A stretch of DNA of 64,000 nucleotides, from contig SHYA01000003.1 of NCBI GenBank assembly GCA_009693055.1, positions 1-64,000 on the forward strand, read 5' to 3'. Positions 28,136 to 29,145 of this stretch are shown piece after piece. The notes beneath the pieces are model-generated. The model was not told the origin of the DNA, made no database searches, and saw only the letters and a list, made by a program, of their open reading frames with translations. A program made the translations under genes and the position numbers. This DNA is from Dehalococcoidia bacterium (GTDB lineage: Bacteria > Chloroflexota > Dehalococcoidia > Lucifugimonadales > SHYT01). The first letter of the stretch is position 1, and every line of letters starts with the position of its first letter.

Positions 28136-28537
28136 TTGGCCATTACAGGAGGTCTGCTCCTCCTGCTTCTAGCTGGATGCACGGGGGAGGCGAACAGTTA
28201 TGTCATACCTGGTGGGCATGCGGCGGAGCAGGGACGAGTTTTGTACGAGGCGAACTGCCAGACGTGCCACGGCGGCGACACCGGCGGCAACCTAAGGGAT
28301 ATCCCACCTCCCCACAACACCAACGGGCACACCTGGCATCACGCAGACCAGCAACTCACGGACAGCATCCTTCACGGTTTCTCTGACCCGCTGTCCCCCC
28401 AGCAGATGCCGGCCTTCGCTGGTAAACTCGAGGAGAAAGACGTAAGGGACATTCTTGCGTATATTAAGACGTGGTCGACCGCAGATCAGCAGGATTGGCA
28501 GCGCCAAGCAACCGAACAGTGGGAGCAGTTGCGGTGA
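28136..28537 (+). CDS. Lipoprotein c-type cytochrome
   Basis: About 133 residues. A hydrophobic leader (ITGGLLLLLLAGC) ends in a lipobox with Cys15. Mature part: EANCQTCHGGDTGG with haem-binding CxxCH (Cys41, Cys44, His45), and a likely axial Met in PLSPQQMPAFAGKL (about 91), then the final helix VRDILAYIKTWS. A mono-haem class I cytochrome anchored outside the membrane. The start is unclear: TTG 28136 gives an uncharged leader, while ATG 28110, one frame off, sits just after GGAGG; one missing base would join them. Its stop overlaps the start of the next gene by 4 bp (GTGA). Confidence 0.85.
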   Translation: MAITGGLLLLLLAGCTGEANSYVIPGGHAAEQGRVLYEANCQTCHGGDTGGNLRDIPPPHNTNGHTWHHADQQLTDSILHGFSDPLSPQQMPAFAGKLEEKDVRDILAYIKTWSTADQQDWQRQATEQWEQLR

Positions 28538-29145
28538 TCCGACGGGCTGTAATTCTGGCAGCACTCTTGGGAATGCTGCCAACGGGCATCCCCGCCTGCT
28601 CCAGCGACAGCGATAGGGCGTCCCCGGCTCCAACCACTAGGACGTCCGCGGCACCAAGCACGATAAGCAACCCTGGGCTGGAACCCGTCGCCATTGGGCA
28701 AAAAGCGCCCGGCTTCCAGTTAACGAACCAGTACGGCCAGCCCTACACCGTGCAGCCCGGCAGCGACGCGCCATACCTTTTGGTCTTCCACATGGGGTAT
28801 TTCTGAGCGGGCTGCAGGGGCCAGCTTGGCAAGCTGGCAGAATACAAAGATGAACTCGGATCTGTGGACAATGTGGTTGCTATCAGTGTGGATCCGCCCA
28901 AGGAATCGCAGAAGATGGACCAATGGCTGAAAGGGGCTTTTGCATTACTACAGGATCCGGACCTCAGCGTAATTTCGGCGTTCCAAATGGATATGTCGAT
29001 GGGCGGGACCCCATTAGCGGCCATGGGCTATGTCATCATGGACAAGGAAGGCAATGTACGCTATCGGGTCACAGACGGGGCCTTCGGTGAGCACGCGGAC
29101 ACCATCCTCAAGAACCTGCGCGCTTTGGAGACCGCACAACCGTAG
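28534..29145 (+). CDS. Selenocysteine-containing redoxin lipoprotein (UxxC), predicted
   Basis: 203 residues if UGA at 28804-28806 is read as selenocysteine (residue 91). A lipoprotein-type leader (IRRAVILAALLGMLPTGIPAC, possible lipid Cys22) is followed by a Ser/Thr/Pro linker and an AhpC/TSA-like thioredoxin fold: IGQKAPGFQLTNQYGQPYTV, LLVFHMGYF-U-AGC-RGQL (U91, Cys94), VDNVVAISVDPPKESQ, LLQDPDLSVISAFQM and GYVIMDKEGNVRYRVTDG. In relatives the UGA position is Cys of a WCPxCRxQL motif. The reading frame continues for 112 codons in the same frame to TAG at 29143. GTG 28534 overlaps the cytochrome stop, giving translational coupling. Likely an extracytoplasmic thiol/peroxide reductase acting with that cytochrome. 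Confidence 0.85.
28807..28838 (+). promoter_or_regulatory. Candidate bacterial SECIS element
   Basis: Right after UGA: 13 nt, then GCCAGCTT (28820-28827), loop GGC (28828-28830) and AAGCTGGC (28831-28838), a perfect 8-bp stem. The loop starts 21 nt after the UGA and has G in its first two positions. This fits the general bacterial SECIS pattern (hairpin immediately 3' of the UGA, small loop with an early G), which recruits SelB and Sec-tRNA. Confidence 0.75.

Follow-up and report, generated by a model that had tools for sequence, protein, structure and literature searches.

The redoxin gene and its product

The window (the whole stretch of Dehalococcoidia DNA that was analysed, 64,000 nt in length) carries on its forward strand, as with its other features given below, a predicted seleno-redoxin gene at 28534..29145, which begins with GTG, contains an in-frame TGA at codon 91 (28804..28806) and ends with TAG (29143-29145). 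A GGGAG stretch is found about 9 nt 5' of the GTG. With the TGA read as selenocysteine (Sec, U), the product would be a 203-residue lipoprotein of the peroxiredoxin (Prx) fold, and this single in-frame TGA lies within the active-site motif F-U-A-G-C, in which U91 opens the U-A-G-C motif and Cys94 (codon 28813-28815) closes it. The first-pass annotation had proposed both this frame, with its TGA at residue 91, and an AhpC/TSA-like fold on either side of the TGA; sequence and frame agree with the former, and the PF00578 (AhpC-TSA) match of the read-through product (61.6 bits against a cut-off of 26) bears out the latter, since it covers residues 54-177 around U91 and the redoxin similarity therefore spans the TGA. 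A standard gene caller splits the ORF in two or ends it at the UGA, and the membrane-anchored seleno-redoxins of one Dehalococcoidia order are therefore probably misannotated. The source genome is a draft metagenome-assembled genome (MAG) of 1.51 Mb in 11 contigs, 94% complete with 7% contamination.

The N-terminal leader (28534..28602) contains the lipobox I-P-A-C, with Cys22 at 28597-28599, and is followed by a low-complexity Ser/Thr/Pro linker. With Pro at -2 this lipobox is weaker than in most relatives, the majority of which have canonical ones such as LAAC or VVAC. It departs at that position from the bacterial lipobox pattern [LVI][ASTVI][GAS]C behind a signal peptide. By an automatic rule a clear lipobox is present in 34 of 45 frames of the seleno-redoxin family, and the G355 orthologue has a transmembrane anchor in its place. 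The lipoprotein leader proposed earlier is thus backed by the family, though the window's own I-P-A-C is weak, and we consider the protein to be probably extracytoplasmic and lipid-anchored.

Immediately upstream lies a gene for a c-type cytochrome lipoprotein (28136..28537) with a lipobox LAGC, a CQTCH haem motif and the sequence NGHTWHHAD, matching PF13442 with 54.6 bits and PF00034 with 47.1 bits. Its TGA stop codon (28535-28537) overlaps the redoxin start as GTGA.

Conservation of the UGA in relatives

A first set of relatives comprised matches in about four to five other genomes, with one TGA per match. Across the order, redoxin matches (E <= 1e-7) were found in 80 of 250 genomes and nearly all of them contain a TGA, as do those of the UxxC type. 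In loci that were read directly, the TGA forms the first position of [FWY]-U-x-x-C-R-x-Q-L, and every UxxC relative in the alignment has it in this column. The matches free of a stop are mostly ordinary TxxC peroxiredoxins, together with one Trx-like protein and the one Cys form of the seleno-redoxin family (L084, HRGYD-C-TG-C-RAQL). Close orthologues in the class (G355, G277 and G304, with 51, 46 and 52% identity, respectively) all read MGYF-TGA-GGC with the TGA in the same column; the putative public counterparts of their contigs (JACQUM010000039, SHYM01000055 and JACQGV010000024) are labelled Chloroflexi or Dehalococcoidia and come from groundwater and Lake Baikal. U91, C94, Q97 and L98 are the sole positions without variation in 36 aligned domains. 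In the relatives the frame runs on beyond the UGA, whose column holds U or C, as expected of a selenoprotein family from the earlier reading of the gene. That reading had placed the TGA where relatives have their first Cys; the column is indeed conserved, but nearly all UxxC relatives have U there and a single one (L084) has Cys. No redoxin homologue was detected at E <= 1e-7 in the two genomes of the window's own family, in which the gene is therefore not fixed, and there were none among the viral contigs searched.

Two further arrangements were seen among the loci. Tandem seleno-redoxins occur at L011, L039, L040, L044, L045, L047 and L048, and at L034, L049 and L057, either as two UGA domains per frame or as runs of two or three seleno-redoxin frames, mostly with linkers rich in Pro and Thr. 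L090 (G242:C14:28600-29700) has a peroxiredoxin-like frame with a TGA at the position of the peroxidatic Cys (FTGG-TGA-THQ), a probable seleno-peroxiredoxin of the TxxU type.

Fold and active site

The AlphaFold2 model, built from an alignment of the window protein and the loci, has a Prx fold with a mean pLDDT of 86 and U91 positioned just ahead of helix 92-103. Among solved structures, Bcp4, AhpE and PrxQ come closest, Bcp4 and AhpE being the best PDB matches. When the protein is aligned to peroxiredoxins, C94 falls on the peroxidatic Cys, and U91 takes the place of the conserved Thr. The fold, these AhpE- and Bcp-type structural neighbours and this alignment would all suit a membrane-anchored peroxidase of the peroxiredoxin type, with one of the two residues C94 and U91 reducing H2O2 or lipid peroxides and its partner acting as the resolving residue. 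However, the window protein lacks the canonical combination of PxxxTxxC and catalytic Arg, having M87 for the Pro, U91 for the Thr and M164 for the Arg, and the same holds throughout the 36 members, where residue 87 is always M or R, with no case of Pro, and residue 164 varies among P, A, M and L, with no case of Arg. Moreover, UxxC is a motif of thiol-disulfide catalysts, as is argued for the Prx-like class in PMC1088965. We therefore regard a peroxidase as possible but rather unlikely.

On sequence grounds, the active site is best described as a thioredoxin-like UxxC on a Prx scaffold, and because this site replaces the Pro, Thr and Arg of peroxiredoxins, a thiol-disulfide oxidoreductase is favoured over a peroxidase. 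A simple analogy with thioredoxin is weakened, since the thioredoxin-type cis-Pro is missing from the window protein (M164). Taking fold, motif and neighbouring genes together, we consider a thiol-disulfide (selenylsulfide) oxidoreductase role fairly probable. In such a reaction, U91 would attack the disulfide of a partner and C94 would resolve the intermediate, leaving a U91-C94 selenylsulfide.

Selenocysteine machinery

Family searches of the window's own genome recovered the whole of the machinery (selABCD) that the first-pass annotation had named as a check on its reading: a tRNA-Sec with a UCA anticodon (70.3 bits against a gathering score of 47), selA (560 bits), selB (337 bits with neighbours; it shares a contig with the window) and selD (387 bits). 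The selD gene has an in-frame TGA of its own (HCAG-U-AAKF), and SelD is a second selenoprotein of this genome (L031, G000:C8:96878-97798, minus strand). A TPP riboswitch (56.8 bits; L002 2229-2340, G000:C6) is located close to the tRNA-Sec gene, and the wider locus L016 around this region has a thiazole-synthase-like frame.

All three orthologue genomes (G355, G277 and G304) contain tRNA-Sec. In the order, selA occurs in 201 of the 250 genomes. Of the 79 matching relatives, 73 carry it, and the remaining six, all incomplete MAGs, include three with tRNA-Sec. One genome, G448 (90% complete), has a TGA-containing redoxin homologue (L072), but searches detected no selA and no tRNA-Sec there, a gap probably due to missing contigs.

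A SECIS-like hairpin downstream of the UGA

A candidate bacterial SECIS (bSECIS) hairpin, GCCAGCUU-GGC-AAGCUGGC, is located at 28820..28838, as judged by folding, covariation, a synonymous-codon test and comparison with published bSECIS criteria. It starts 13 nt after the UGA and has an 8-bp stem, a GGC apical loop, a UGA-to-loop distance of 21 nt and a folding energy of -12.8 kcal/mol. The bSECIS model, as given in PMC13188914, comprises a loop of 3-9 nt, a stem of 4-16 bp, a G in the first two loop positions, a distance of 16-37 nt from the UGA and an MFE <= -7.5 kcal/mol, and the window hairpin lies within all of these limits. Compared on its own with shuffled sequences, the window hairpin has a folding energy that is not unusual (z ~0); this single-hairpin test is uninformative, so that the case for a SECIS rests on the family and a family-wide synonymous-codon test was used.

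Across the family the stem codes for QLxxL. The third base of the Gln codon and the first base of the Leu codon covary, with 22 G-C, 13 A-T, 7 G-T and no A-C combinations (Fisher p = 3e-6, uncorrected for relatedness), and in alignment A4 the stem pair 21-31 is GC in 21 cases, AU in 12, GU in 7 and mispaired in none. All five stem pairs are kept at 46 of 48 sites, against a mean of 13.9 and a maximum of 24 in 2000 simulation runs in which codons were redrawn from each gene's own codon pool, a procedure that removes GC content and codon usage as confounders. Sliding the partner strand by one column lowers stem pairing from 95% to 30-37%. The SECIS-like hairpin is under selection and is kept by synonymous codon choice.

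Reading of the UGA

With a conserved TGA column, the Sec machinery and a family-wide hairpin, the earlier preference for selenocysteine over a nonsense mutation is upheld, and we are almost certain that the UGA at 28804-28806 is decoded as selenocysteine in the cell. Insertion would proceed by way of tRNA-Sec, SelA, SelB and SelD, together with the hairpin at 28820-28838. The GTGA overlap suggests translational coupling with the cytochrome gene, and it could be proposed that the UGA acts as a selenium-dependent switch of a cytochrome operon, low selenium yielding mainly a truncated 90-residue leader; there is, however, no sign of selection for the short product, codons being equally conserved upstream and downstream of the UGA, and we think such a switch highly improbable. 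A nonsense mutation or an assembly error in a dead gene could each produce a lone in-frame stop in a MAG, all the more in a draft genome with 7% contamination, but independent genomes, from groundwater, Lake Baikal and other sources, have the TGA in this very column, alongside an invariant UxxC, a conserved hairpin and full Sec machinery. The same error would have to recur in dozens of assemblies, and this explanation was rejected as having next to no chance of being correct. A changed genetic code, with TGA read as another amino acid such as Trp, would likewise leave the redoxin frame open but was rejected as vanishingly improbable, given that the neighbouring cytochrome gene stops at TGA, that the codon falls at a catalytic site where one relative (L084) has Cys and that the genome has a tRNA-Sec with a UCA anticodon.

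The cytochrome partner and a possible role

The same type of cytochrome adjoins the MGYF-U-[AG]GC redoxin at all four loci with a readable flank (window, G355, G277 and G164); the G164 contig holds only the C-terminal part of the redoxin (51% identity), and the G304 contig ends before the cytochrome-side flank. Next in the G164 locus come genes for a TlpA-like protein and for a membrane protein resembling CcdA (assigned by eye; Pfam gave no match), then a partial frame that resembles a second cytochrome, a further gene for a TlpA-like protein, and SCO1, and the G355 locus has a second cytochrome copy and a SCO1-like gene (named by eye). At the G277 locus, an Lgt-like frame (prolipoprotein diacylglyceryl transferase, named by eye; L075 9018-9842) immediately precedes the genes for the cytochrome and the seleno-redoxin. 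In the wider family, the G305 redoxin gene comes after one for cytochrome c assembly (PF01578), itself preceded by ccmA/ccmB-like genes, and that of G167 is near CopC/CopD and a cytochrome c. A CcdA/DsbD-like protein is encoded elsewhere in the window's own genome. These neighbours, as associations and not as proof, appear to point to extracytoplasmic thiol or copper/haem chemistry.

It is tempting to speculate on how such a protein might work. A CcdA-type membrane protein would probably supply the electrons, and the clients would probably be the neighbouring c-type cytochrome, the copper sites of respiratory enzymes, or both; the clients and the redox direction alike are suggested by the neighbouring genes. 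A dedicated role of the seleno-redoxin in cytochrome assembly seems doubtful. We would offer just as tentatively, as a single proposal, that Dehalococcoidia have a dedicated, selenium-dependent redox pair outside the cytoplasm, consisting of the MGYF-U-[AG]GC selenolipoprotein and the NGHTWHH-type cytochrome, with Sec either replacing the thiol step of the CcmG/ResA type or exchanging electrons directly with the cytochrome, so building or running a respiratory chain. The broader interpretation, a Sec-containing protein predicted to act as an extracytoplasmic thiol-disulfide redoxin, is in our view very likely. The hosts are uncultured Dehalococcoidia known mainly from metagenomes, and the cytochrome partnership, joined at some loci by SCO1, CcdA-like and cytochrome c assembly genes, suggests an extracytoplasmic role for selenium that can be tested.

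Comparison with known systems

Literature searches combining selenoproteins with SAR202 found no reports, and those combining selenoproteins with Chloroflexota found none that were relevant; among NCBIfam models, none reaches its cut-off on the MGYF-U-[AG]GC subgroup. NF041057, the Rcas_1661 thioredoxin-like (seleno)lipoprotein (DsbG-like), is likewise a lipid-anchored UxxC (seleno)protein of the thioredoxin fold, but this model (cut-off 190 bits) has no match to the window protein at E <= 0.1 and describes a different family. The SelL-related redox protein NF040769 is the best NCBIfam neighbour of the wider family, and the two-domain protein of G023 passes it (132.6 against a cut-off of 120); the window protein scores 33.5 bits, far below that cut-off. 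With the thioredoxin-like lipoproteins CcmG, ResA and TlpA, the window protein would share a mode of action, namely the reduction of thiols close to cytochrome c, outside the cytoplasm, with electrons from CcdA, but it has the Prx rather than the TlpA fold and Sec in place of the first Cys, and its match to the ResA model is weak (15.7 against a cut-off of 170). With the 1-Cys/PrxQ peroxiredoxins (AhpE and Bcp) it shares the fold and the closest solved structures, but not PxxxTxxC or the catalytic Arg.

The closest counterparts are the Prx-like UxxC selenoproteins. Members from the Sargasso Sea set, with a thioredoxin-like UXXC in place of TXXU, were described in 2005 (PMC1088965), 225 sequences of Prx-like 1 were reported from GOS in 2008 (PMC2398784), and a 2026 review (PMC13188914) lists both a 'Prx-like thiol:disulfide oxidoreductase, PF00578, UxxC/UxxU' and a 'Redoxin family protein, PF08534, UxxC'. 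In common with this class, the window protein has a PF00578 fold with a score above the cut-off, a conserved UGA as the first position of UxxC, a downstream bSECIS, a genome encoding selA, selB, selC and selD, and a predicted thiol-disulfide role. It differs in its low similarity and, going by the published descriptions consulted, may differ in its lipobox leader and its tie to a c-type cytochrome. In view of this literature and of NF041057, the chemistry and lipid-anchored selenoproteins were both already known, and the first-pass suggestion of an undescribed, new kind of extracytoplasmic selenoenzyme does not stand, the more so as dozens of genomes of the order carry such a gene. By its sequence, then, the window protein is a divergent member of the known Prx-like UxxC class, and what appears new, as far as tested, is the divergent subgroup itself, its spread within one Dehalococcoidia order and its partnership with a cytochrome.
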